The notes under the pieces are model-generated. The model saw only the letters and a list, made by a program, of their open reading frames with translations, searched no databases and was not told where the DNA came from. Of a stretch of DNA of 64,000 nt, positions 23,998 to 56,416 are shown in pieces. Made by a program: the position numbers and the translations under genes. Numbering within the stretch: position 1 is the first letter of the stretch; each line of letters opens with the position of its first letter. Source of the stretch: Acidobacteriota bacterium (GTDB lineage Bacteria > Acidobacteriota > Terriglobia > Acidiferrales > UBA7541); assembly GCA_013289855.1 (NCBI GenBank), contig JABCZD010000002.1, positions 372,001-436,000 of the forward strand, in the 5' to 3' direction.

Positions 23998-25089
23998 TTA
24001 ACTCGGGTCGTCACTCGGTTCTTTTGCGAAACGATGCTTCTTGCCATCGCTGGACTGGTCAGCGTGGCCGATAGCCCTGGTCGAGCCACGAACCACTAGT
24101 TCGGGCTCCACGGTGATCTGTTTGCGAAAACGCTCTGAACCGTTCAACTGGTTCAGGACGCACTGCGCGGCAATCCTACCCATGTTGGACATGGGCTGAC
24201 GAATGGTGGTGAGCCGGGGATTGCTGAACGCTGCGATTTTAATGTCGTCGAATCCGATGACGGAGACATCCTCGGGAACGCGCAGGCCAAAATCTTCCAG
24301 CGCGCGCATAGCGCCGATGGCCGCCAAATCATTGAAGGAAACCAAGGCGGTGAAGCGTTCGCGGCTGGAAAGCAGACGCTGCATGACGGGATAACCCAAT
24401 TCCGGCGAAGTACTGTCCTGATCGAGTTGCACGGTGAGCTCGGGTTTGATGGCGATACCGATTTCTTTCGCCACGGCAACCAGACTCAGCCAGCGTTCAT
24501 CGGAATCCGAACTGAAAGACTGACCACGCATGAAGGCCACATGGCGGTGCCCCAGGGAGTACAGATGCGCCAGAGCAAGTTCGGCGGCGAACTTGTGATC
24601 AAGAACGACGTTGGTAACGCCGTTAATGGGCCGGTGACCGGCAACGGCGACGACCGGCACCGCGTACGAGTGCTCCAGTGCCGTATCAATGGTGATGAGG
24701 GCTTCCGCTCCGCGGCCGAGCAGCATCTGCGCGTATTCTTCTACAAGATTTTTGCGGTGGCGGTGATGCGCGGTGAAATAAAAATAGCCCGCTTCCATCA
24801 AGTGATCGCCGATGCCGCTCATCACCTGGGTGTGATAGCCGTCGCCCAGCTCCGGCACCAATATTCCGATGGTCAAGGTGCGGCGATTGCGCAGCGAGCG
24901 GGCCAGCAGGCTGGGGCGATAGTTAAATTTCTTTGCGGCGGCTTTTATGCGGTCACGCGTGGCTTGTGGGATGGAACGTCCGGGAACTTCATTGAGAACC
25001 ACTGAGATGGTGGCCGGATTCAGTCCGAGGTATTCTGCGAGTTGCTTCAGTCCGATGGGTTCATTCTTGGGCGGCGGAGTTTTTTTCAT
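23998..25089 (-). CDS. LacI-family transcriptional regulator (repressor 1)
   Basis: 363 aa. N-terminal LacI HTH (about 13-70: GLKQLAEYLGLNPATISVVLNEVPG, hinge region YRPSLLARSLRN) and a periplasmic-binding-protein-like sugar sensor (about 72-340) with the usual GFDDIKIAAFSNPRLTTIRQP end motif. A Lys/Asp-rich tail closes it. It is read in the same direction as the GH30 gene, 240 bases downstream of that gene's end. Candidate operators with the LacI-type CG centre lie upstream of the GH30 gene and of TonB receptor 2, so control of these genes by this protein is likely (inference). Effector sugar unknown. Confidence 0.93.
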   Translation of the reverse strand: MKKTPPPKNEPIGLKQLAEYLGLNPATISVVLNEVPGRSIPQATRDRIKAAAKKFNYRPSLLARSLRNRRTLTIGILVPELGDGYHTQVMSGIGDHLMEAGYFYFTAHHRHRKNLVEEYAQMLLGRGAEALITIDTALEHSYAVPVVAVAGHRPINGVTNVVLDHKFAAELALAHLYSLGHRHVAFMRGQSFSSDSDERWLSLVAVAKEIGIAIKPELTVQLDQDSTSPELGYPVMQRLLSSRERFTALVSFNDLAAIGAMRALEDFGLRVPEDVSVIGFDDIKIAAFSNPRLTTIRQPMSNMGRIAAQCVLNQLNGSERFRKQITVEPELVVRGSTRAIGHADQSSDGKKHRFAKEPSDDPS

Positions 25090-25330: not shown

Positions 25331-26746
25331 CTACCACACCAGGGTGGTGACGGATTCCGGATCAAGCGCCACGTCCATGGCCTTGGCTCCAAGTTGGCAC
25401 CGCACCGTTTGTTTTTCGCCGCGGTTCGTCAGCACCAGGACGAAGCTTCCATCCGGGTTCTGGCAGGCGACATGATCAATGTTATTCACGTTTCCTTCGG
25501 AGGCGACCACATGCGCGCCTCTGCGAATCGCTTTCGAGTAATGTGCCATGGCCCAATACTGCCCGCTGCGGGTAATCTCTTGCGTCTGCGAATTCAGCGT
25601 GACCAAGCCACCGCAAGGGAACGGGCCAATGTTCGGCCGGCCTTTTTCGTCCAGCAAAACATTCCAGCCGACGATGCATTCCGCCCAGTTGCGCAAAATT
25701 GCGGTCATGGACTGAGACCACTTGGTCCAATCCGTCGCATAGTCCGGACTGGTGATGTCGGGTCCGCCCTCTGTGAAGTAACAATTCTTGGCGGGGAAAG
25801 CGTCGTGCACGCGGGTCATGGCGTCCGGATTGCCGAGATATCCGTGCCAGGCTACGCCGTCGACATATTTGTTCAGTACGGGATCGCTTAGTTCATCGAC
25901 GGCGCGGCCGGCAAGATTGTAATTGTGGTCGAGTATCCAGATTTTAGTGTCGAGAGAAGCGCGCTCCAAGGCGGGCCCGAGAAATTTTTTGATGAACTCC
26001 ACCTCGTACTCTTGGCCCCACAGGGCGGCCGGCATTCTGGAATCCTGATCCGTGTCGACTTCGTTTTGAATGGTGACCGCGTTGATTTTGACGCCTTCAG
26101 CGGAGTAGCCCTGAAGGAATTTGACGAAATAGTCAGCGTAGGGAGCGAAATATTTTTTCCGCATGGAGCCGCCTAGCAACGAGCCGCCGGCCTTCATCCA
26201 GCCTGGAGGACTCCAGGGCGTGGAAAAAAGAAATAGCTCGGGATTGCTTTGGCGGGCATCGCGAAGCGCCGGAAGAATGTAACTTTTGTCGTGATCGAGA
26301 TTGAACTTTTTCAATTCGGGATCCGGTTCGGTGCTGTCGTCATAACTGTAGGGCATTGTGGAATAGTCGCTGGCGCCGATGCAGGTGCGGCTTACCGAGA
26401 GGCGCAATCCCGCCGGGCCATACAGTTCAGAAAAGAGCGCCTGTTTTTGTTGCGTGTTCAGCTGCGAATACAGATAACACGAGGAATCAGTAAGAGCGGC
26501 GCCAAAGCCCAGGAGTTGCTGATATTGCTTGGAAGCATCAATGCGAATGCTTTGCGGAGAGTTGTCCGCAGCGCGCCATGCCGGCGCCGTGGTTTCTTCG
26601 TATTTGCGGTCCTTGGACGTACACCAGGCGCGAACGCTGCCGGCCGCCGAGCTGGCCCACACAGAAGCGCCAGTTAAACCACTCGCCAAGCCGCAGGATG
26701 CTGCCGCGGCGACTCTCAAAAAATCTCTGCGTGTGCGCGATGTCAT
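25331..26746 (-). CDS. Glycoside hydrolase family 30 enzyme (glucosylceramidase-like)
   Basis: 471 aa retaining beta-glycosidase. Tat signal (TRRDFLRVAAAASCGLASG), then a TIM barrel with the acid/base Glu229 in TIQNEVD and the nucleophile Glu326 in YFTEGGPD, and a short beta side-domain to the C-terminus (SVTTLVW). GH30 members cut beta-1,6-glucan, beta-glucosyl or beta-xylosyl bonds; the exact specificity is open. ATG 26746 chosen because GGGGAA lies about 5 bases upstream and the twin-Arg motif follows at once; the reading to 26779 adds 11 residues. Exported folded by Tat. Divergent from TonB receptor 2 across an operator-rich gap. Confidence 0.9.
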   Translation of the reverse strand: MTSRTRRDFLRVAAAASCGLASGLTGASVWASSAAGSVRAWCTSKDRKYEETTAPAWRAADNSPQSIRIDASKQYQQLLGFGAALTDSSCYLYSQLNTQQKQALFSELYGPAGLRLSVSRTCIGASDYSTMPYSYDDSTEPDPELKKFNLDHDKSYILPALRDARQSNPELFLFSTPWSPPGWMKAGGSLLGGSMRKKYFAPYADYFVKFLQGYSAEGVKINAVTIQNEVDTDQDSRMPAALWGQEYEVEFIKKFLGPALERASLDTKIWILDHNYNLAGRAVDELSDPVLNKYVDGVAWHGYLGNPDAMTRVHDAFPAKNCYFTEGGPDITSPDYATDWTKWSQSMTAILRNWAECIVGWNVLLDEKGRPNIGPFPCGGLVTLNSQTQEITRSGQYWAMAHYSKAIRRGAHVVASEGNVNNIDHVACQNPDGSFVLVLTNRGEKQTVRCQLGAKAMDVALDPESVTTLVW

Positions 26747-26813
26747 GCTTTTTCCCCGGGGTTGCGGATTTTGGGCCATTTTGTAAGAGAGTTGCTTGCA
26801 CCATGTTTACCAA

Positions 26814-26827
26814 GACAAACGATTGTC
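26814..26827. promoter_or_regulatory. LacI-type operator candidate 1
   Basis: GACAAACGATTGTC: arms GACAA/TTGTC perfect, CG centre. It lies about 70 bases upstream of the GH30 start. Preceded by AA as in the other two copies. Confidence 0.6.
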
Positions 26828-26912
26828 GCAAGATTGCACACCCATCCGGGTTTTGGCAATGGAAAAATCGATTTAGCGGCAAAAATGGCCGATTTTGGGG
26901 GGTATTGGTTAA

Positions 26913-26926
26913 GACAAACGATTACC
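26913..26926. promoter_or_regulatory. LacI-type operator candidate 2
   Basis: GACAAACGATTACC, matching operator 1 at 12 of 14 positions and at all of the first 11. About 27 bases before the forward -35 box. Confidence 0.55.
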
Positions 26927-26952
26927 TTAATGAAAAGCATCACATTTTCTGC

Positions 26953-26982
26953 TTGACAGCGATAGTCGAATGGGTTTGTAAT
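26953..26982 (+). promoter_or_regulatory. Putative sigma-70 promoter of TonB receptor 2
   Basis: TTGACA (26953-26958), 18-base spacer, TGTAAT (26977-26982). Operator 3 lies about 35 bases past the predicted start point. Confidence 0.55.
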
Positions 26983-27021
26983 GCGTCCCAGTTATAGTGC
27001 AAACCCACTAGGAAGTACTAA

Positions 27022-27035
27022 GACAACCGTTTGCC
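27022..27035. promoter_or_regulatory. LacI-type operator candidate 3
   Basis: GACAACCGTTTGCC: same AAGACAA left arm, CG centre, right arm with one mismatch. Downstream of the predicted transcription start, as expected for a roadblock site. Confidence 0.5.
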
Positions 27036-27171
27036 TGTTTTTAGTACTAGTGGGAGAGGTGGTTTTCGCGCAGCGCTTCGGCGGTAGTAGGGGTGATGTT
27101 TGGACCGCTCGGGACGCTACGGTGGGACGAACGTTTGGGGTGTCACTTAACTCGTGGTGGGAAGGAAAAAA

Positions 27172-30100
27172 ATGAAATACGCATTTCGTTTCGCTCTCTC
27201 AGTTCTGTTGTTGCTGGGCATGACCAGGGGTGGTTTTGCGCAGAGCACCAACTCAGGCGAGATTCGCGGCACCGTACTGGATGCGTCGGGCGCCGCGGTC
27301 CCGGGGGTAACGGTGACGCTCAAGAACATTGACACCGGCGAGACCAAAGACTTCGTCACCAACGCCGATGGTATTTACGACACGGTTTCGACGCGTCCTG
27401 GAAATTACAATCTCACTTTCACGAAGGAAGGGTTTAAGCAAGTCACGCGAGGACCCATCCAGTTGCAGGTTTCTGTGATCACCGAGGACGCGAGCTTGCA
27501 AGTGGGCCAAGTATCAGAGGTGGTTCACATCGAAGCCAACGGCGTGCCGTTGCTGCAGACGGAAAGCGGCGAGCAAGGGCACATTTTGGAGGCCAAGACA
27601 ATTGGAGAATTGCCGCAGATCGGCGCCGGCATCACCGGTAATGACTGGGCAAACTTCAACATCTTGCTCCCGGGAGCTGGAAGTTCTCCCACGCAACCGT
27701 CCTCGGAAGGTAGCGGGGCCTATAACGCCGGTGACGCGGTTTCCATCAACGGCAACCTCCCGAATTATGCGAACTATCTGCAAGATGGAGGCGTCGTTCA
27801 GCTGCCGGTTAGCAACAACGTAGATAACACTTTGTTCTCGGCCGTACAAGAGGTCCAGATTACGACCTCGTCGTTCTCGGCGCAGTATGGTATCGGCGGC
27901 GCGGTGTTCAACCAGATCACCAAGAGCGGGACCAACTCGTATCACGGCTCGGCGTATGAATATTTTCAGAACTCCGCTCTAAACGCGAGTCCCTTTTTCT
28001 GGCTTCCGAATAACAGCAGTAGCGGCGGCTATTCTCCACAGAAGGTAGGCTACCTCCGGTACGATGAGTACGGCGGAACGGTAGGCGGGCCAATCCTAAA
28101 GAACAAGCTGTTCGTTTTCTTCGCGGTGGACAAGCTCTATAACAACGGTGCCTCAAGCTCCACACTCGGCACGGTTCCCACGCTAGCGGAAAGAGGCATA
28201 GGAACGCCCGAAGGCGCCTACGTCTTCACCGGCCTGCCAACTCTGTACGACCCGACAAGCTGCAACACGCCGGGATGTACTCGAAAGTCATTCGCTTCGG
28301 AGAATACCGGTGCACTTGCTGGCCTGAACGCGATTCCTGCTGGCGACATCGATCCGGTGGCGGCCAAGATTTTGGCTCTCTATCCTATGCCCAATGTGGG
28401 AGCGGCTGGAGCGACCTCGAATAACTTCAGCACCACCTTGCCGGCCCCGAACCCCAATCTGCGCTTTTTCGGACGTCTCGATTACACGCTCTCTCCGTCC
28501 AATACGATGAATTTCTCGATCAGCCAGAAGAACAACCCCGGGGTAAACAAGTACGGACCGCTTCCTTGCCCGATTAACTGTTTTTCTGGAGACATCGATG
28601 GGTACAACGTGCAATTCACCGATACCTGGACGATCAGTCCGAATTTCTTTAACGAATTCCGCATGGCATACACCAAACAGGGGAACTGGTTCATTCCTGA
28701 TACGGTTGGGTTCAACTCCGAGACGCAACTGGGTTTGCAATACGCGAAGGCGGACATTCTTCCTACGATAAACATCGGTGGTGCGGGACTCTGCTGCGCG
28801 CAGCTGGCTCCCGGCACCAACGCCATCTACATTGAAAATCTCTACGATCCGTCGGACGTCATAACGCTGATTAAAGGCAAGCACATTTTGCACTTCGGCG
28901 TTGAGGTGCTGATGGGCCAAGGCAACACCACACCATGGGGAAACCTGCAGGCGGGCAATTTCAACTTTACCGGGAACTACACCGCGCAAAACGGCGCGGT
29001 AGCGGGTAGCACCGGTACTGGTTTCGCCGATTTCCTGCTTGGCGACGTGCAGAGTTGGAGCGCCACCAACCAAGCCGTTTCTTACGCGAGGCTCAAGAGC
29101 CCGCAGCTGTTCGTTCAGGACGACTTCAAGGTCAAACCGAATCTCACCATCAACTTGGGGCTGCGTTACACGGCCACAACAGGTTTTACGGAAATACACA
29201 ATTCCATTGGCGGCTTCGATCCGAATATCCCGCTGACCTACCCATGCCCCTCTCCCCAGTTCTCGAACTGCTCGTATGAGGGCACTTTGGGGTCGATGTG
29301 GTTCGCCCCGCAGGATAATCGAAACTCAGCACAGCAGCCTATTTACAATATCTTCTTGCCGCGAGTCGGCTTTGCGTGGAGCTTCATGCCGAACACCGTA
29401 TTGCGAGGCGGCTTCGGGATGTATTCGTATAACTTCAGTCAGGACGTTTACGGAGCCGGAATCGGAGCCGGTTCCTTGAGCACCAGCACCGGTAGCGCTT
29501 CGGACCCGTTCGCGGGAACTGGACCGACACCGCTCATCTACTTGAGTTCATCTGCTGCCGATGCGAACGCTGTGCTCAACTACGTGATTGGCTCGCCGAC
29601 CTCAAGAACGCCTTACACCTATCTTAATCTCCTATCTCCATCCAATCAGACCTACGTTCCTTATAACGTCCCGGTGGGTCGCATCAACGAGTGGACGGTA
29701 AGCATTGAGCATCAGTTTACCGGGGACCTCATGGCGTCCCTAGCGTACGTTGGGAGTCACGGAAGTAATCTGCAGTTCCCAACGGACATCAATCAAATCA
29801 CCAGCCCGGCTGGCATTGCCGCAAGCTCGGCCGCTGGATCGGCGGTTCAGGCGGATCGTCCTTTCCCGGCCTGGGGGCAACTGGGCGGTAATAATTACAA
29901 TGGCATTTCAAACTATAACGCCGTTCAGGCACTTGTCACAAAACGTTACTCCAAAGGACTGCTCTTCAGCGCAAATTTCACTTGGTCGCACTTTTTGGAC
30001 GACCAGGATTCGGGCGGATGGGGCAGCCGCGGGGGCACGCAGTATTGGCAAATCGGGAACGACCCCGCTGCGAACTATGCCAATTCCAACTTCGACATAC

Positions 30101-30720
30101 CAATTGCATTTAAGGGATATGCGTCCTACGAGCTGCCTTTTGGTAAAGGCAAGCAATATCTTAGTAATAAAGGGACGGTAGTGGATGAACTCGTGGGTGG
30201 TTGGCGCATTGCGGGAACATTCCTCGCGCAGAGCGGAAATCCGTTCACCGTTGTGATGGGCACTAACATGAACAACACCATCACAGGCTGCAGCGTCGGC
30301 GGCACTGCCACCGGCGGCGACGTCAATAACGGCTGTAATTGGTTCCCCAACATCGTGGGCAACATTAATGGACCGAAGACCTCCGCCGAGTGGTTTAACA
30401 CTTCAGCGGTCGCCGTGCCAGGGAGCGCGGGCGTGTTTGCATTCGGCGACGAGGGCAGGAATATCTTCCGGGGGCCAAGGCTATCGGTGGTGAACCTGTC
30501 CCTCGCGAAGGACTTCAGTTTCATGGAACGGTTCCATTTGGCCCTTCGCGCAGACTTTGTCAACGCTCTGAATCATCCCAGCCTCGGACTTCCGGATCAG
30601 ATCTGGAATGGACCGACCGCGCCGTTAGGCAATTTCGGCCAGATCAACGGGTCGACGCTGGGTGGTGGAGTTGCGGTGGCCCCCCGCAGCGGTCAATTGA
30701 GTGCTGTGTTCTCGTTTTAA
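27172..30720 (+). CDS. TonB-dependent receptor 2, Oar-like with carboxypeptidase-regulatory domain
   Basis: About 1182 aa. Signal peptide (KYAFRFALSVLLLLGMTRGGFAQ), CarboxypepD_reg-like domain (about 25-110: GEIRGTVLDASGAAVPGVTV), plug region with SFSAQYGIGGAVFNQITKSG, and a long barrel ending in Phe (QLSAVFSF). ATG 27172 has GGAAGGAAA directly upstream; the reading from 27154 adds six residues. It is probably the outer-membrane gate for the oligosaccharide released by the GH30 and GH55-like enzymes nearby, judged only from gene order and shared operators. A clear terminator follows its stop. Confidence 0.92.
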   Translation: MKYAFRFALSVLLLLGMTRGGFAQSTNSGEIRGTVLDASGAAVPGVTVTLKNIDTGETKDFVTNADGIYDTVSTRPGNYNLTFTKEGFKQVTRGPIQLQVSVITEDASLQVGQVSEVVHIEANGVPLLQTESGEQGHILEAKTIGELPQIGAGITGNDWANFNILLPGAGSSPTQPSSEGSGAYNAGDAVSINGNLPNYANYLQDGGVVQLPVSNNVDNTLFSAVQEVQITTSSFSAQYGIGGAVFNQITKSGTNSYHGSAYEYFQNSALNASPFFWLPNNSSSGGYSPQKVGYLRYDEYGGTVGGPILKNKLFVFFAVDKLYNNGASSSTLGTVPTLAERGIGTPEGAYVFTGLPTLYDPTSCNTPGCTRKSFASENTGALAGLNAIPAGDIDPVAAKILALYPMPNVGAAGATSNNFSTTLPAPNPNLRFFGRLDYTLSPSNTMNFSISQKNNPGVNKYGPLPCPINCFSGDIDGYNVQFTDTWTISPNFFNEFRMAYTKQGNWFIPDTVGFNSETQLGLQYAKADILPTINIGGAGLCCAQLAPGTNAIYIENLYDPSDVITLIKGKHILHFGVEVLMGQGNTTPWGNLQAGNFNFTGNYTAQNGAVAGSTGTGFADFLLGDVQSWSATNQAVSYARLKSPQLFVQDDFKVKPNLTINLGLRYTATTGFTEIHNSIGGFDPNIPLTYPCPSPQFSNCSYEGTLGSMWFAPQDNRNSAQQPIYNIFLPRVGFAWSFMPNTVLRGGFGMYSYNFSQDVYGAGIGAGSLSTSTGSASDPFAGTGPTPLIYLSSSAADANAVLNYVIGSPTSRTPYTYLNLLSPSNQTYVPYNVPVGRINEWTVSIEHQFTGDLMASLAYVGSHGSNLQFPTDINQITSPAGIAASSAAGSAVQADRPFPAWGQLGGNNYNGISNYNAVQALVTKRYSKGLLFSANFTWSHFLDDQDSGGWGSRGGTQYWQIGNDPAANYANSNFDIPIAFKGYASYELPFGKGKQYLSNKGTVVDELVGGWRIAGTFLAQSGNPFTVVMGTNMNNTITGCSVGGTATGGDVNNGCNWFPNIVGNINGPKTSAEWFNTSAVAVPGSAGVFAFGDEGRNIFRGPRLSVVNLSLAKDFSFMERFHLALRADFVNALNHPSLGLPDQIWNGPTAPLGNFGQINGSTLGGGVAVAPRSGQLSAVFSF

Positions 30721-30824: not shown

Positions 30825-32024
30825 ATGAAGACGAGAGAAGTCCTTCTATCGGTGATTGCTGGGCTTTTTCTGGACGTTGCGCCGTGCTTCTCGCAGTCCG
30901 CGCCGAGCACGCAGCAGCAAATCGCGGCACACAGTCTCAAAGCCCAGGAATATCTAAAAGAGAATAAGCCGGAGCTGGCGGTGCCGGAGTTCAAAGCGCT
31001 CGTCGCGCTCGAACCGAACAACGTTGACGCGCGTGGAAACCTCGGCGTGCTGTTGTTCTTTCAGGGCGCGTACGCGGACGCGATTCCGCAGCTGCGGGCC
31101 GCATTGAAACTGCAGCCAGCGCTTTGGAAAATACAAGCTCTACTCGGAATGGCGGAAAAGCGGACGGGAGATGTTGCCAGCGCGCTGGGCGATTTGGAAA
31201 AGGCGTTTCCGAAGCTTACGGAACAGAAGATTCGCATTGAGACGGGCATGGAGCTGATCGAGATTTACTCCAAGTCCGGAGATCTGGAGAAAGCCGCCGT
31301 GACCGTCGGAGTGCTTCGCGAGCTGGAGCCGACAAACGTCGAAGTTATTTACGCGGCGTATCGCGTTTATTCGGATCTGGCCGACGAAACCAAGCTCAGC
31401 TTGTCCGTGGTGGGGCCGAAGTCGGCGCAAGTCCATCAAATGATGGCGCATGAGCTGGCCCGAGAAGGGAAGACGGATGAAGCCATCGCGAACTATCGCG
31501 CCGCGCTGGCTATCAATCCGGCGCTGCCCGGTCTCCATTTTGAGTTGGCGGAAATGTTGAACAATCCTGCGGTGAAAGATGGCGCGGAAGAGGCCGAGCG
31601 GGAGTACAAGGCGGCGCTGGAAGTTAACCCGCTGGACGAAAAGTCCGAGTGCCGACTGGGCGATATCGCGGCGCTGCGCGGCGATCAGAAAGAGGCCTTC
31701 GAGCGGTATTCGCGAGCTCTGCAACTGCAGCCCGACGATGCCGATGCCAACATCGGTCTCGCCAAAGTTTTAATGTCCATGAATCAGCCTGAGAAGGCCG
31801 AAGCACTGCTAAAGCATGCCATCGCGCTAGATCCCACCAGCGCGCAGGCGCATTTCCGGCTAAGCACCATCTACCGGCAGACTGGGCGCCCTGAGGATGC
31901 CAAGCAAGAACTGGCCGAATATCAGAAATACAAAGACATGAAGGAAAAATTGCGAGAGATGTATCGCGCCATGCGCCTCGATCCTGGCAAGCAAGAGCCG
32001 GACGACACCGACGCGCACAACTGA
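30825..32024 (+). CDS. Exported tetratricopeptide-repeat protein
   Basis: 399 aa with a signal peptide (about 1-23, ending PCFSQ). About nine TPR units follow, e.g. LKAQEYLKENKPELAVPEFKALVALEPNN, DAIPQLRAALKLQPAL, EAIANYRAALAINPALPGLHFELAE, EAFERYSRALQLQPDDADANIGLAKVL, ending in a basic tail. TPR solenoids bind peptides or proteins; the partner is unknown. It stands directly after the terminator of the TonB receptor and 61 bases before the GH55-like gene, and likely starts a TPR-glycosidase-CRTAC1 transcript. Confidence 0.88.
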   Translation: MKTREVLLSVIAGLFLDVAPCFSQSAPSTQQQIAAHSLKAQEYLKENKPELAVPEFKALVALEPNNVDARGNLGVLLFFQGAYADAIPQLRAALKLQPALWKIQALLGMAEKRTGDVASALGDLEKAFPKLTEQKIRIETGMELIEIYSKSGDLEKAAVTVGVLRELEPTNVEVIYAAYRVYSDLADETKLSLSVVGPKSAQVHQMMAHELAREGKTDEAIANYRAALAINPALPGLHFELAEMLNNPAVKDGAEEAEREYKAALEVNPLDEKSECRLGDIAALRGDQKEAFERYSRALQLQPDDADANIGLAKVLMSMNQPEKAEALLKHAIALDPTSAQAHFRLSTIYRQTGRPEDAKQELAEYQKYKDMKEKLREMYRAMRLDPGKQEPDDTDAHN

Positions 32025-32085: not shown

Positions 32086-35052
32086 ATGCTTAAAGCTCTT
32101 TTACCGCTGGCCCTGCTCGCCGCGCCGGTCGTTTCAGCGTTCGCTTCGTCTTACTATCCGCTGCGCTTGGATGACCCTAAGGCCATCTACCTGACGCCGG
32201 ACAATTTTGCCGTTCATGGTGATGGCCTGGCTGACGATTCCGACGCGCTGCAGCAGGCCATGAATAAAGTTCAGGAAACCACCAACCAGGGAATTTTATT
32301 CGTGCCCGCGGGCCGGTATCGGCTGACGAGGACGATTTATGTTTGGCCGGGAATCCGGCTGATCGGCTTTGGCGCCACGCGGCCGGTCTTTGTGCTGGGC
32401 GCAAACACGGCTGGTTTTCAGCAGGCTCCCAAGTACATGGTGTTTTTCGCTGGTGGCCGTCCCGGATACGGGCGAGCGCCTCGCAACGGCAAAGCTGCGG
32501 GAGATGACACTCCGCCGGATGCCGATCCCGGGACATTTTATTCCGCGATCAGCAACATCGATATCGAAATTCAACAGGGTAACCCCGGCGCGGTGGGGGT
32601 TCGGGCGCGCTATGCCCAGCACTGCTTTCTGGCGCACATGGATTTCCACATCGGTTCAGGTCTCGCGGGTATTCATGACGGCGGCAATGTGGCGCAGGAT
32701 GTGCATTTTTACGGCGGGCAGTATGGTGTGTGGACGCGCAAGCCGTCTCCTGGTTGGCAATTCACGTTGATTGACGCGAGCTTTGAAGGCCAGCGCGAAG
32801 CGGCCATTCGCGAACACGAAGCCGGACTGACGTTGATTCGTCCACAATTCAAGAATGTTCCTACGGCGATTTCTATCGATGCGAAATATTCCGATGAGCT
32901 GTGGATAAAAGATGCCTGGATGGAAAATATTTCCGGTCCGGCCGTGATTATCAGCAACGAAAACAACGCACGCACCGAAATCAATATGGAAAATGTGGTG
33001 TGTCGCGGCGTTCCGGTTTTTGTTTCTTACCGGGAGAGTGGGAAACAAATTGCCGGCGGTCAGGGAGCCTACGCGGTAAAAACTTTTTCGCATGGTCTGC
33101 ATTTCGCGGATATTGACGCGACTCCCGCGATTCAGGACGTCTTCGAGCTGGGGCCGTTGCTTACGTTACCGGCGTCCGTTGCGTCTGACATTCGCGAACT
33201 GCCGCCGATGGACACGTGGGTGAATCTCCGCACGCTGGGCGCGCACGGCGACGGCGTGGCGGACGACACGGAAGTTCTCAAAAAAGCGATTGCCGAGCAC
33301 CGCACGATCTATTTGCCGTCCGGGCAGTATCGCGTTACGGACACGATTACGTTGCGACCGGACACCGTGCTCATCGGTTTGCAGCCGAGTGTTACGAGAA
33401 TATTTCTTGCCGACGGAACGCCCGCGTTTCAAGGAATTGGCAGTCCCAAGGCGCTTCTGGAAACGTCGCGCGGCGGAACGAATATTGTTACCGGCATCGG
33501 ACTGTACACCAACGGAATCAATCCGCGCGCAATGGCGGCAAAATGGATGGCGGGTGCGGACTCGATGATGAACGATGTGCGCTTTTTGGGCGGGCACGGC
33601 ACCATCGAACCCGGCGCCACCCCGGAAGAGGCGGAAAAAATCTGGCACCAGATTTACAACAATACGCACACCGCGGATTCAAATATCAATCGCCGCTGGG
33701 ACGCGCAGTATCCGAGCCTGTGGATTACCGATGGCGGCGGAGGAACCTTCGTCGATCTCTGGACGCCGAGCACGTTTGCGCAGGCGGGGCTGTACATTTC
33801 CGATACTTCGACGGAGGGACGCATTTACCAGTTGTCCAGCGAGCACCACGTTCGCAACGAAGTGATGCTGCGAGATGTTTCCAACTGGCAAATCTATGCC
33901 TTGCAGACTGAAGAAGAGCGCGGCGAGGGAGGCTTCGCTTTGCCGCTGGACATTCAGGATTCGAGCAACATTACCATCGCGAACTTCCATCTCTACCGCG
34001 TGGTGAGCGCGTACCAGCCTTTCCCGTACGCCATCAAAGTCACAAACTCTAAGAACATAAAGTTCCGCAATATTCATTGCTACAGCGACAGTAAAGCTTC
34101 ATTTGATAACGCCGTTTACGATCAGACGCACAATGTTGAGATCCGCCAGCGTGAGTTTGCCTGGCTCACCGTTTCCGGGGATGCGCCGAAAATCCCGACG
34201 CAGACGCCGGGTCCAATCATTGCCGAAGGCGCGAAGCTGGAGAAAGTTGCGGGAGGATTTTTCAACATTTCTGGCGGAGCCGTTGATGACTCCGGGAATC
34301 TTTACTTCGTGGATGCCAAATGGCAAACCATCTACCGCTTTTCTCCGTCGGTTCGCCAGGTAACGATGGTGCGCAACAACCCCTTGGAACCCGTCCAGCT
34401 CGCCTTTGATAAAGCCGGCGACTTGATGGTGATTTCGTACGCGGGGAACGGCACGGTGTACAGCTTTAAAACGGACTCGCGGGGTGACGAAATTACATTG
34501 CTCAAAGCTGTTCCCTCGGAGCCGCGTCCCGGGATGAATGTGGTCTTGCCCGCGACTTTCTGGCGCAACGACAATGATTTCCTTGAGAAAATTCCGGTGC
34601 AGAAGCCGTACCAATTTGTGTCGCCCGATGGCAGCACCTTTGTGCCCGCGGGCGAGGATTTTGTGAACGGGGAATTGTATTACGGCTCCAAAATCCACGA
34701 CGTGCTGCGGGCTTTCGGCATGATTACTGTTGCTCCGAATCAGCCGTACTTTGTTTCCGATGAATCCGGAGAGAAAACTTATTCCGGCAGCGTGGGTGCT
34801 GACGGCACCATCGGGGGCCTGAAGCTTTTTGCCGAGCAAGGCGGCGAAGGTCTTACATGGGACGAACAAGGCAACGTGTACATCGCCGCGGGACAGATTT
34901 TCGTTTACAGTCCAGCCGGGAAACTAATTGACACTATCGTAGTTCCGGAACGCCCTTCGCAATTGTTGTTTGGCGGCAGCGACGGTAAAACTTTGTTCAT
35001 CTTGGCGCGCAGCTCCTTATATGCTGTGCAAAGCCGTTTCAAGGGTCATTGA
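32086..35052 (+). CDS. Double pectate-lyase-3 (GH55-like) beta-helix protein with C-terminal beta-propeller region
   Basis: 988 aa with signal peptide (LKALLPLALLAAPVVSAFA). Two Pectate_lyase_3 beta-helix units: the first at about 45-330 (VHGDGLADDSDALQQAMNKV, FVPAGRYRLTRTIYVWPGIRLIG), the second at about 385-680 (LGAHGDGVADDTEVLKKAI, IYLPSGQYRVTDTITLRP). This tandem is the layout of GH55 exo-beta-1,3-glucanases. The last about 270 residues look like a SMP-30/NHL-type propeller (GGAVDDSGNLYFVDAKWQTIYRF, WDEQGNVYIAAGQIFVYSPAGKLIDTI). Catalytic residues cannot be fixed by eye. Its stop overlaps the next start. Confidence 0.8.
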   Translation: MLKALLPLALLAAPVVSAFASSYYPLRLDDPKAIYLTPDNFAVHGDGLADDSDALQQAMNKVQETTNQGILFVPAGRYRLTRTIYVWPGIRLIGFGATRPVFVLGANTAGFQQAPKYMVFFAGGRPGYGRAPRNGKAAGDDTPPDADPGTFYSAISNIDIEIQQGNPGAVGVRARYAQHCFLAHMDFHIGSGLAGIHDGGNVAQDVHFYGGQYGVWTRKPSPGWQFTLIDASFEGQREAAIREHEAGLTLIRPQFKNVPTAISIDAKYSDELWIKDAWMENISGPAVIISNENNARTEINMENVVCRGVPVFVSYRESGKQIAGGQGAYAVKTFSHGLHFADIDATPAIQDVFELGPLLTLPASVASDIRELPPMDTWVNLRTLGAHGDGVADDTEVLKKAIAEHRTIYLPSGQYRVTDTITLRPDTVLIGLQPSVTRIFLADGTPAFQGIGSPKALLETSRGGTNIVTGIGLYTNGINPRAMAAKWMAGADSMMNDVRFLGGHGTIEPGATPEEAEKIWHQIYNNTHTADSNINRRWDAQYPSLWITDGGGGTFVDLWTPSTFAQAGLYISDTSTEGRIYQLSSEHHVRNEVMLRDVSNWQIYALQTEEERGEGGFALPLDIQDSSNITIANFHLYRVVSAYQPFPYAIKVTNSKNIKFRNIHCYSDSKASFDNAVYDQTHNVEIRQREFAWLTVSGDAPKIPTQTPGPIIAEGAKLEKVAGGFFNISGGAVDDSGNLYFVDAKWQTIYRFSPSVRQVTMVRNNPLEPVQLAFDKAGDLMVISYAGNGTVYSFKTDSRGDEITLLKAVPSEPRPGMNVVLPATFWRNDNDFLEKIPVQKPYQFVSPDGSTFVPAGEDFVNGELYYGSKIHDVLRAFGMITVAPNQPYFVSDESGEKTYSGSVGADGTIGGLKLFAEQGGEGLTWDEQGNVYIAAGQIFVYSPAGKLIDTIVVPERPSQLLFGGSDGKTLFILARSSLYAVQSRFKGH

Positions 35053-36791
35053 AAGAGTTCTCACGATTTATGCCCACGTTGGCGCGGTTCGCGATGTTCG
35101 CGGTTTTGATTGTCCTTCCGATTAACGCTCAGACTAAGGCGCAACTTTCTCCGAGCTCGGCGCCGGACGTGGCTTCATTGCCGCAGTTTGTGGATATTAC
35201 CGCTTCGACCGGCATCAAGTTTGAGCATCTCTCGAGTCCGGAACAAAAATACATTGTGGAGTCCATGGGCGGCGGCGTCGCTTTGATTGACTATGACCGC
35301 GATGGCTGGCCCGATATTTATTTCACCAACGCGCAAAATGTGGAGATGGCGCGCACGGGGCAGAAAGCGCGTAGCGCGCTGTACCACAACAACCGCGACG
35401 GAACGTTTACAGACGTTACCGACAAAGCCGGCGTTGGCTATCCCTGCTGGGCGATGGGCGTTGCGGTGGGCGACTACAACAATGACGGCTGGCCGGATTT
35501 GCTGGTCACCTGTTTTGGCGGAGTGGTGCTTTATCGCAACAATGGCGATGGAACATTCACTGACGTCACCAAGCAGGCTGGCTTGTCCAACGATTCGCTG
35601 TGGGCCACTGGAGCGGCGTTTGGAGATTACGACGGTGATGGCTGGGTGGATCTCTTCGTGGCGCACTACGTCGATTTGCAGCTCAGCGATCTCCCGCGTT
35701 TTGGTTCGGCAAAGACCTGCAAATACCGCGGCATTGATGTGCAATGCGGCCCGAAGGGACTCAAAGGCTCGCCCGATAATCTGTATCACAACAACGGCGA
35801 TGGGACCTTCACGGACGTATCGAAAAAAGCCGGCGTCAGCGATCCACAAAATTATTTTGGCCTGACGGCGGTGTGGTCGGATTTCAACGCGGACGGTCAT
35901 CTGGATCTGTTTGTAGCTAACGATGGGCAAAAAAATTATCTGTACCAAAATGATGGGAGCGGGCATTTCACGGATGTCGCGCTCGCTGCGGGCGTAGCGG
36001 TCAGCCAGGACGGTGCGGAGCAAGCCAACATGGGTGTGGCTCTCGGGGACTTTTTGCATACGGGGCGTTCATCGATCGCCATCAGTCACTTCAGCGATGA
36101 ATACGCCACGCTGTTCCGCAACGACGGAAACATGAGCTTCAGTGATGTTTCGTATGCTTCCGGTATCGCACCGGCTACAACTCCGTACGTCGGCTGGGGA
36201 GACGAGTTTATTGATAGCGACAATTCCGGATGGATCGATTTTTTTCTGGTGAACGGGCATGTGTACCCGCAAGTAGATAGCCTACCGGCCGGCGCACGAT
36301 ACCGCGAGCCGAAGCTGTTGTACCAGAATCAGCGCGACGGCACGTTCAAGAACGTCAGCAAGCTGGTGGGACCGGCCATCCAGATTCCCCAAGTTAGCAG
36401 GGGCGTGGCGATGGGGGATTTATTTAACGACGGGTGCGTGGATATCGTGGTGGAAAATCTTACCGGCAGTCCCATGATTCTCAGACCGCAATGCAGCACC
36501 GCGAATCACTGGATCAGTTTTGAACTGGAAGGCACAAAGAGCAACCGGCTGGCCCTGAGTGCTCGCGTAAAAGCGATTGCCGGCGACTTGGTGCAGACCA
36601 ACGAAGTCTTGAGCGGCGGCAGTTATCTTTCGCAGAATGATCTACGCGTGCACTTCGGACTTGGCAAGCGCGACTCCGTCGACAAGGTTGAAATTCTCTG
36701 GCCCAACGGAGAAACCGAGACGCTCAGCCATCTGGCCGCGAATCACTTTTACTACATCAAACAGGGCAAAGGCATCGTTCCTAGACCGTAG
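35049..36791 (+). CDS. CRTAC1 family protein (FG-GAP/VCBS repeats plus ASPIC/UnbV)
   Basis: 580 aa exported protein. After a signal peptide come at least six FG-GAP-type calcium loops (DYDRDGWPDIYF, DYNNDGWPDLLVT, DYDGDGWVDLFVA, DFNADGHLDLFVA, DSDNSGWIDFFL, DLFNDGCVDIVV) forming a beta-propeller, then the ASPIC/UnbV domain (LSGGSYLSQNDLRVHFGLG...VEILWPNGETETL). Such proteins are surface or periplasmic and probably carbohydrate binding. The TTG at 35049 overlaps the upstream stop (TTGA); ATG 35070 is an alternative start that keeps the signal peptide. Convergent with the formate dehydrogenase operon (15-base gap). Confidence 0.9.
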   Translation: MKEFSRFMPTLARFAMFAVLIVLPINAQTKAQLSPSSAPDVASLPQFVDITASTGIKFEHLSSPEQKYIVESMGGGVALIDYDRDGWPDIYFTNAQNVEMARTGQKARSALYHNNRDGTFTDVTDKAGVGYPCWAMGVAVGDYNNDGWPDLLVTCFGGVVLYRNNGDGTFTDVTKQAGLSNDSLWATGAAFGDYDGDGWVDLFVAHYVDLQLSDLPRFGSAKTCKYRGIDVQCGPKGLKGSPDNLYHNNGDGTFTDVSKKAGVSDPQNYFGLTAVWSDFNADGHLDLFVANDGQKNYLYQNDGSGHFTDVALAAGVAVSQDGAEQANMGVALGDFLHTGRSSIAISHFSDEYATLFRNDGNMSFSDVSYASGIAPATTPYVGWGDEFIDSDNSGWIDFFLVNGHVYPQVDSLPAGARYREPKLLYQNQRDGTFKNVSKLVGPAIQIPQVSRGVAMGDLFNDGCVDIVVENLTGSPMILRPQCSTANHWISFELEGTKSNRLALSARVKAIAGDLVQTNEVLSGGSYLSQNDLRVHFGLGKRDSVDKVEILWPNGETETLSHLAANHFYYIKQGKGIVPRP

Positions 36792-55297: not shown

Positions 55298-56416
55298 ATG
55301 ATGGTGCCCACGGGAGACCCACCCTTGAAGCGCGAAAGCAGCGCCAGCTCCACGGTAACCATGCGCGACGTGGCTACGGCCAGCGGTTTTTCCTCCGCCA
55401 CCGTCTCCATCGTCTTGAACAACGCGCCGCTAGCTCGCTACATCGCGCCCGCCACAAAAAAACGCATCGAAGACGCCGCCAAAAAACTCGGCTACCGCCC
55501 CAATGCCATGGCGCGCTTTCTCCGCAGCAAACGCAGTCACAGCATCGGCGTAATGTTTTTCGACATTACCGATCCCTACTGCACTCCCATCCTTCGCGGC
55601 ATCGAGAACGCTCTGTATCAATCCTCATACGTCCCGATCTTTGCCGACGCCCACAATCAGAAAAATCGTTTCGAGCGTTATCTCGAGATGCTCCTCGAAC
55701 ATCACGTTGAAGCTCTCATTGTCGTCGCCAACTGGCTGCTCGTGGACATTCATCTGCTCGCCGACGTCAGCAAACGCAACATTCCCGCCGCCACCATCTG
55801 CTGGGAGCTCGATGGCGACACCGTCAGCTCCGTAATGGTTGACAACGAAATGGGTGGGCGCCTCGCCCTCGAACATCTCTACCAGCTCGGCCATCGCAAG
55901 ATTGCTTACATCCGCGGCCCGAAAATGCTTATCGACAGCGGTCCGCGCTGGAAGGGCATCCAAAAATTCGCCCAATCTGTAAAGCTGGAGATCGATCCCG
56001 CGTTGGTTACCCAGTTGACCGACTCCTTCGACGCCAACTCCGGCTTCGAAGGCGGCTACCGCTTCACTGAGGAATTGCTGCAAAAGAAAAAACGCTTCAC
56101 TGCTTTGCTGGCCTTCGACGATCTAACCGCATTCGGCGCCATTCGCGCGCTCACCAAGGCCGGCATCAAAGTTCCCGAACAGTGTTCCGTAATTGGTTTT
56201 GACGACGTGCCGCTGTCCGCGCTCTCGGCCCCATCCCTCACCACTATTCGTCAGCCGCTTGAGACCATGGGTGGCCTCGCCGTGCAAATGGTCATGGACA
56301 GCATCAACGCCGGTCTTGAAAAACGCGATTGGACCAGCTCTCGCCAGCGCGTGACCCCCGAACTTGTCATTCGCGATTCCACGCGCGCCGCCTCGCAAAC
56401 CGCCGCCGACGACTAG
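55298..56416 (+). CDS. LacI-family transcriptional regulator (repressor 3)
   Basis: 372 aa. HTH at about 21-80 (TMRDVATASGFSSATVSIVLN, hinge YRPNAMARFLRSKRS), sugar-binding core with DDVPLSALSAPSLTTIRQPLETMG. Last gene of the SIS-APC operon (44-base gap) and the natural ligand of the palindrome at 52533-52550. AGGAAGG precedes the start closely; ATG 55298, ATG 55301 or GTG 55304 are all possible. Followed by a strong bidirectional terminator. Confidence 0.93.
   Translation: MMVPTGDPPLKRESSASSTVTMRDVATASGFSSATVSIVLNNAPLARYIAPATKKRIEDAAKKLGYRPNAMARFLRSKRSHSIGVMFFDITDPYCTPILRGIENALYQSSYVPIFADAHNQKNRFERYLEMLLEHHVEALIVVANWLLVDIHLLADVSKRNIPAATICWELDGDTVSSVMVDNEMGGRLALEHLYQLGHRKIAYIRGPKMLIDSGPRWKGIQKFAQSVKLEIDPALVTQLTDSFDANSGFEGGYRFTEELLQKKKRFTALLAFDDLTAFGAIRALTKAGIKVPEQCSVIGFDDVPLSALSAPSLTTIRQPLETMGGLAVQMVMDSINAGLEKRDWTSSRQRVTPELVIRDSTRAASQTAADD

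Follow-up and report, generated by a model that had tools for sequence, protein, structure and literature searches.

Three repeats in the gap between two divergent genes of sugar metabolism raise the questions of whether they are operators, which protein would read them, and which genes they would control. The gap considered here lies in a 64-kb stretch of acidobacterial DNA (the window), part of a genome of 5.35 Mb (G000). A sequence-only reading had placed in it three LacI-type operators, and had suggested that a nearby repressor, LacI 1, acts from them on both flanking genes by looping.

Three palindromes in a divergent control region

On one side of the gap is the gene for a GH30 enzyme (25331..26779, minus strand; the conserved start is probably at 26746), whose nearest solved relative is 5NGK, the endo-1,6-beta-glucanase BT3312. 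On the other is TonB receptor 2 (27172..30720, plus strand), which has a carboxypeptidase-regulatory domain and an outer-membrane barrel. The receptor gene is followed on the same strand by genes for a TPR protein (30825..32024), a probable operon partner that is also found 3′ of the receptor in the related genomes G001, G020, G061 and G062; a GH55-like protein (32086..35052), another probable partner, with pectate-lyase-type beta-helix matches and a C-terminal SGL domain; and an FG-GAP/UnbV repeat protein (35049..36791), possibly the last gene of the operon, whose ORF overlaps the preceding one by 4 bases. The LacI 1 gene (23998..25089, minus strand) lies 3′ of the GH30 gene on the same strand. 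Its 363-aa product is, as judged from its domains, a LacI/GalR-family repressor with an HTH and a sugar-binding core, and is the probable reader of the operators: the core matches PF13377 (E 1.6e-32) and PF00532 (E 3.7e-22), the HTH scores 26.4 bits against PF00356, just below the cut-off of 27, and the protein aligns to PurR over residues 14-337.

Three exact copies of AAGACAA(A/C)CG are present, all on the plus strand (26812-26821, 26911-26920 and 27020-27029), and each forms one half of an 18-bp imperfect palindrome centred on CG. The sequence-only reading had described these copies and palindromes correctly, with positions that were off by about 2 bases; the spacing that it put near 100 bases is 99 and 109 bp. 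The whole array fits within 226 bp between the two divergent genes. Operator 1 (26812..26829; AAGACAAACGATTGTCGC) is 65 bp from the GH30 ATG at 26746, an ATG conserved in three genomes. Operator 2 (26911..26928; AAGACAAACGATTACCTT) is upstream of the likely receptor promoter, and operator 3 (27020..27037; AAGACAACCGTTTGCCTG) is downstream of it, in the untranslated leader. Each differs from the symmetric consensus at two positions. Operator 3 is the best conserved, with 16-17 of 18 bases shared between genome pairs compared with 13-15 for operators 1 and 2. In G000 it is flanked by an inverted repeat, AGTACTAA...TTAGTACT (window 27014-27048), which was not seen by eye in the aligned sequences of G001 and G020.

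The likely receptor promoter (26953..26982, plus strand) consists of a −35 element, TTGACA (26953-26958), and a −10 element, TGTAAT (26977-26982), with a spacer of 18 in G000; TTGACA and GTAATGC are invariant in the alignment of three genomes. A consensus promoter scan did not find it because the scan demands an A at position 2 of the −10 element, and its identification therefore rests on conservation and inspection by eye. There are 24 bp between operator 2 (centre about −70) and the −35 element, and operator 3 starts ~40 bp past the −10 element, so that the pair encloses the promoter. The layout is as first described, with one site near the GH30 start, one before the forward promoter and one after it.

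The GH30-receptor pair is kept in G001 and G020, with identities of 80 and 62% for the receptor, 68 and 66% for the GH30 enzyme, and 87 and 81% for LacI 1, respectively. In the alignment, the operators occupy matching places in all three genomes and, together with the TTGACA −35 element and the GTAATGC around the −10 element, stand out from flanks that have mostly diverged. The operator spacings are 99/109 bp in G000 and G001, and 99/108 bp in G020. The distance from operator 3 to the receptor ATG is 152, 148 and 137 bp in G000, G001 and G020, and that from operator 1 to the GH30 ATG is 65, 62 and 58 bp; thus, the inter-operator lengths are steadier than their surroundings across these three genomes. 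Between G000 and G020, the spacer separating operators 1 and 2 has 24/81 identical positions without gaps and 40/95 with gaps, about as in shuffled sequence (mean 0.41, 200 shuffles). The same spacer can still be aligned between G000 and G001 (33/81 ungapped, 53/88 gapped), as can the spacer separating operators 2 and 3 in all pairs of the three genomes.

Occurrence of the motif and the LacI 1 clade

A genome-wide motif search had been proposed as a check, and its outcome depends on the length of the motif. AAGACAA(A/C)CG with up to one mismatch has 8 matches in the window against 7.88 expected, and its exact form occurs 19 times in the genome (3 of these within 218 bp) compared with 25 for the reversed control. 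We therefore rejected the 10-mer as evidence on its own, there being no excess in window or genome. The 18-mer AAGACAAACGATTGTCTT, itself derived from sites already inspected, has seven places in the whole genome at up to three mismatches and none for the reversed control. The seven include all three window sites. Two more lie 5′ of a second GH30 gene (GH30b; contig C1) and 5′ of a GH55 beta-1,3-glucanase gene (contig C4). The other two are without clear link to glucan use: one is near a cold-shock-type gene, so named by eye (C1:76974), and one, with two mismatches, is at the start of a MASE1-PAS-HisKA_3 histidine kinase ORF (C3:364584; L030:6585-6602), where it may reflect chance or a regulatory link.

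With the looser pattern WAGACAANCGNTTGTCTW at up to two mismatches, there were nine places in G000 and six for the control, and 35 of 61 genomes had one or more; a lone 2-mismatch match elsewhere is therefore no evidence. We inspected 13 of the 14 stretches fetched around other 2-mismatch places in LacI 1-type genomes (L175-L187; not L188). Twelve sites fall inside an ORF of at least 90 aa, although not all such ORFs need be genes, and the remaining one (L187) is 126 bp from a 451-aa ORF with no Pfam match. We took these places to be probable chance matches.

A search of 61 genomes with LacI 1 gave some match in 45. All nine genomes in which a LacI 1-type repressor is encoded have a TonB-type receptor gene accompanied by WAGACAAnCGnTTGTCTW at 0-2 mismatches, each time in the gap before that gene. 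Mismatches to WAGACAANCGNTTGTCTW number two at each of the three sites in G000, one at the best site in G001, one in G003, and none in G020, G017, G030, G032, G061 and G062. In G017, G032, G003 and G030 (LacI identity 64-68%), the 0-1-mismatch site separates the LacI gene from a divergent TonB-type receptor gene. The 19 sites collected from the nine genomes give a symmetric, CG-centred motif of 25.4 bits, a value that is inflated because the sites were chosen for matching. G029 was left out of the nine as it has only a LacI 1-like C-terminal fragment (72%, residues 207-353); there is no site on the 5.3-kb contig that carries it.

At 20 loci scanned with the 18-mer (up to four mismatches), matches were found at 6/6 loci with a LacI 1-type gene and 0/14 others; the reversed control gave two matches, both in one of the 14. 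Upstream regions of LacI genes were scanned in 55 cases (one gene being read twice), seven of them LacI 1-type. A 0-1-mismatch site is directly upstream in four of these seven, and the other three genes (G000, G001 and G020) have their sites in the GH30-receptor gap instead. Among the 48 upstream regions of other LacIs, one has a 1-mismatch site (G034, L152), and the palindrome TACTAAANCGNTTTAGTA is present in 17, with three mismatches at most. The reversed pattern at 0-1 mismatches was found in none of the 55.

In a 40-row tree, eight LacI 1-type proteins form one clade (support 99/99); the tree omits the G030 LacI, which is split between two frames and was assigned by its identity (64-65%) and helix sequence. 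All 14 rows labelled TACTAAAnCGnTTTAGTA (TACTAAA) are in another clade, of 18 rows, which joins the LacI 1 clade at 95/58, the support on which its status as nearest sister rests. Several members of this TACTAAAnCGnTTTAGTA-palindrome clade (L068-L085 and others) are divergent from TonB-type receptors. Their helix and loop residues differ from those of LacI 1, whose VPGRSIP loop is one residue shorter.

Two genomes came later. A LacI 1 protein search of named genomes returned 13 loci: those of G001 and G020, two new ones at 76%, and nine distant ones at 25-32%. The new orthologues are from G061 and G062, Acidobacteriaceae records titled ‘palsa’, and were found by the LacI protein after the WAGACAANCGNTTGTCTW pattern was fixed. 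The LacI contigs of these genomes (L191 and L192) have no site and first looked like counter-examples because the receptor operon is on other contigs; a genome search resolved this. In each genome, the receptor 2 orthologue is preceded by a perfect TAGACAACCGATTGTCTA, ~75 bp ahead of its protein match, and the GH30b orthologue (82 and 74% identity) by a site with one mismatch. Whole-genome counts were four places in each, compared with four and two for the control, and the sites named stand apart from the other places by mismatch rank and position only. A 2-mismatch site common to the two genomes precedes an MFS/sugar transporter gene (L220:3420, L221:3280), which is possibly a further regulon member, the evidence from two such close relatives being weak. 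On L191 and L192, the GH55-like gene is followed by the GH30 gene in the same orientation, with the LacI 1 gene convergent to GH30; the three-operator divergent layout is therefore either not ancestral to the whole clade or has been lost.

Sites were also seen apart from LacI 1-type repressors. In G034, TAGAAAATCGTTTGTCTT, with one mismatch, lies upstream of a LacI from a different clade (C128, L152:3771; helix TAGTVSAVLN), and the motif may therefore not be private to LacI 1 and its kin. The same helix occurs in a LacI of G035, where the upstream site is weaker (L169, four mismatches). Among the matches listed is a 1-mismatch place in G059, a genome in which no LacI 1-type gene was found; the 11 kb around this place contain no LacI match. 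In G018, where no LacI above 52% identity to LacI 1 was seen, the GH55 gene (L149, C264; 89% identity) retains, over its operator region, 22 consecutive identical bases and a site with three mismatches. The upstream region of LacI 1 itself has no good site (five mismatches), and hence there is no sign of autoregulation unless LacI 1 is read from the GH30 promoter.

On their sequence and context, the window palindromes look like LacI-family operators: they are even, CG-centred, 5′ of sugar genes, and conserved with orthologues of the regulator. That LacI 1 probably reads them, as first proposed, is strongly supported by the comparison of genomes, including the two found after the motif was fixed and the related clade with a different motif. 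A different LacI paralogue might read them instead, given that G000 has eight matches to LacI 1 and that the G034 LacI shows a close site beside a repressor of another clade. We consider this very unlikely. Among the G000 paralogues placed in the tree, C3 is in the TACTAAA clade, and C9 and C7 lie elsewhere outside the LacI 1 clade; a second LacI in the window (LacI 2, 55298-56416) and three further matches were not in the tree. Moreover, the motif accompanies the receptor in every genome with a LacI 1-type gene. It is scarcely credible that the repeats are not operators at all, being either chance similarity or a conserved RNA leader element. The lack of an excess of the 10-mer over its control would fit chance, and the position of operator 3 in the leader, within a short inverted repeat, would fit an RNA element. 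Against these stand the 7-to-0 count of the 18-mer, the sites on both sides of the likely promoter, the absence of the flanking repeat from G001 and G020, and the recurrence of sites in G061 and G062. An Rfam element at 26700-27250 was also rejected, no match being found up to E 1.

Predicted regulon and mode of control

The genes linked to the operators probably point to beta-1,3/1,6-glucan, as in fungal walls or laminarin, as the substrate. The window GH30 enzyme has its best solved match in 5NGK (E 4.5e-59), compared with 3.3e-23 for AcXbh30A and 1.7e-13 or weaker for chains named xylanase. For GH30b, the corresponding values are 7.6e-81 for 5NGK, and 1.4e-25 and 1.8e-18 for AcXbh30A and the xylanase-named chains. 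The GH55 protein encoded on C4 matches the structures 4PEW and 4TZ1 (E 1.6e-162 and 2e-161), which are of SacteLam55A (PMC10637969), a Streptomyces GH55 exo-acting beta-1,3-glucosidase. The GH55-like third gene of the operon is more distant, its best solved match being the beta-1,3-glucanase 5M5Z (E 5.6e-9) over residues 297-488 (192/988), and it also has two pectate-lyase-type matches. By homology, then, the targets would be glucan-active enzymes. The sequence-only reading had named beta-glucans or xylans: homology favours the former, and we rejected a xylan utilisation locus as xylanases rank far below 5NGK for both GH30 enzymes. The CG-centred palindromes in front of 13 more GH30 genes, namely those of G003 and G030 and 11 from genomes lacking a LacI 1-type gene, are unlike the motif.

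The second GH30 gene (L027:7122-7226, C1) and the GH55 gene (L028:9619-9729, C4) are 70% alike over 105 bases (E 1.6e-6). The likeness runs from part of the operator through the leader into the beginning of the signal peptide, although the genes are unlinked and of different families; their promoter regions are also alike by eye. An operator-leader-signal-peptide cassette may have been copied between unlinked glucanase genes, as if recruiting them to the regulon.

Similar sites beside receptor genes in relatives that carry LacI 1 make this look like an ordinary sugar-sensing switch, and we think it highly probable that the palindromes are LacI 1 operators in a local LacI-family regulon for beta-1,3/1,6-glucan use, released by a glucan oligosaccharide. 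Without inducer, LacI 1 dimers would occupy the three operators. Operator 3, just past the receptor promoter, would block the receptor-TPR-GH55-like operon, and operator 1, next to the GH30 start, would block GH30 transcription; the positions of the sites support the proposed control of both sides. Operator 2, upstream of the receptor promoter and between the other two, would probably strengthen binding or shared repression. The inducer that releases LacI 1 would probably be an oligosaccharide of beta-1,3/1,6-glucan, and LacI 1 probably also controls the second GH30 and the GH55 exo-beta-1,3-glucanase through single operators elsewhere. By eye, these single sites follow promoter-like sequences. 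Operators downstream of apparent promoters fit repression by promoter occlusion or roadblock, and LacI roadblocking downstream of promoters is documented (PMC4132739).

LacI 1 could alternatively be an activator, or a dual regulator, working from operator 2 rather than only a repressor. The place of that operator relative to the −35 element, kept in three genomes, would suit such a role. A location downstream of apparent promoters, as seen for the GH30b and GH55 sites and for operator 3, which is the best conserved, fits repression, and we therefore regard activation as unlikely.

Looping and comparison with known systems

Repression by LacI 1 might be accompanied by looping, as the sequence-only reading had suggested. 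LacI 1 dimers bound at operators 2 and 3, which enclose the receptor promoter at a distance of 109 bp, would pair with each other, as would those at operators 1 and 2, 99 bp apart; an HU-like protein might assist, as in E. coli gal, and one complex would shut both sides. Looping extends the explanation by a local LacI 1 regulon rather than excluding it, and we hold it to be possible though doubtful. In its favour, the spacing of the triad is kept in three genomes even where the spacer of operators 1 and 2 has diverged to chance level (G000 versus G020), and the distances to the ATGs vary more. Yet that spacer is still alignable between G000 and G001, as is the spacer of operators 2 and 3 in all pairs, and the triad is present in three genomes only. 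Four of the six other genomes (G003, G017, G030 and G062) have one clear site; G032 has a second site, with three mismatches, 104 bp away, and G061 has a 4-mismatch site 96 bp upstream.

A lac-type looping repressor has a C-terminal tetramerisation helix with Leu heptads. LacI 1 and seven other clade members end within about 26 residues of the aligned core, with no Leu-heptad tail by eye, and the alignment of LacI 1 to E. coli LacI (1lbg, 360 residues) stops at position 329. On this short tail without a Leu repeat, judged by alignment and eye, LacI 1 does not match a looping repressor of the lac type. The helical phase also bears on looping. At 10.5 bp per turn, 109 bp is 10.4 turns, and at 10.9 bp it is 10.0 turns. 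In gal, OE (−60.5) and OI (+53.5) are 113 bp apart and are looped by GalR dimers with HU; the placing of the window operators around a promoter resembles this arrangement, but spacings of 103, 113, 123 and 133 bp repress in gal and 108 bp does not, so that 99 and 109 bp are near the bad phase, about 4 bp off the GalR-loop optima (PMC4693257). A longer in vivo helical repeat of 11.1-11.6 (PMC1762422) would bring both spacings nearer to whole turns.

In the fullest version, a LacI 1 that lacks the tetramerisation helix would hold both divergent promoters by a double loop (~99 and 109 bp), formed dimer to dimer or with help from HU; the spacing of the three operators would be selected more than their sequence, and the cassette would have been copied between unlinked glucanase genes. 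We offer this as a speculation that is rather improbable as a whole. If true, the double loop would be one switch for both the GH30 enzyme and the receptor operon.

In the E. coli lac operon, LacI likewise has three operators, of which one is at the promoter or just beyond it. Here, LacI 1 lacks a recognisable tetramerisation helix and the operators are within 226 bp between divergent genes. E. coli gal, with GalR and HU, is alike in having a LacI/GalR-type repressor and operators flanking a promoter ~110 bp apart; the window has a third operator for the divergent gene, spacings of 109 and 99 bp rather than 113 bp, and looping that is a proposal (PMC4693257).

Among LacI-family operators surveyed by Ravcheev et al. 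(2014, PMC4052901), most are even palindromes with a central CG, three adjacent sites are reported in 116 operons, and inter-site distances peak at 13, 22 and 32 bp. The window operators are therefore of a known sort. They share with the local regulons of that survey the 18-bp even CG palindrome, the sugar genes near the regulator and the multiple sites in divergent regions, and differ in their spacing of about 100 bp. Acidobacteria have no occurrence in the main text of the survey (PMC4052901), and no acidobacterial LacI regulon of this sort was found by title in the literature searched, the longer lists being covered in part. If the prediction holds, beta-glucan use in acidobacteria gains a regulator with a defined 18-bp operator and a set of genes, and operator recognition could be studied in two related LacI clades that differ in the half-site beside them (GACAA versus CTAAA).

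A further parallel is with the Bacteroides 1,6-beta-glucan PUL BT3309-BT3314, which also combines an outer-membrane receptor with a GH30 enzyme, the window enzyme being related to its BT3312 (5NGK). That PUL has a SusR-type regulator, a SusC/D pair and a GH3 (PMC5481569), whereas the window locus has a LacI-type regulator, a receptor with a carboxypeptidase-regulatory domain, and GH55-type proteins.
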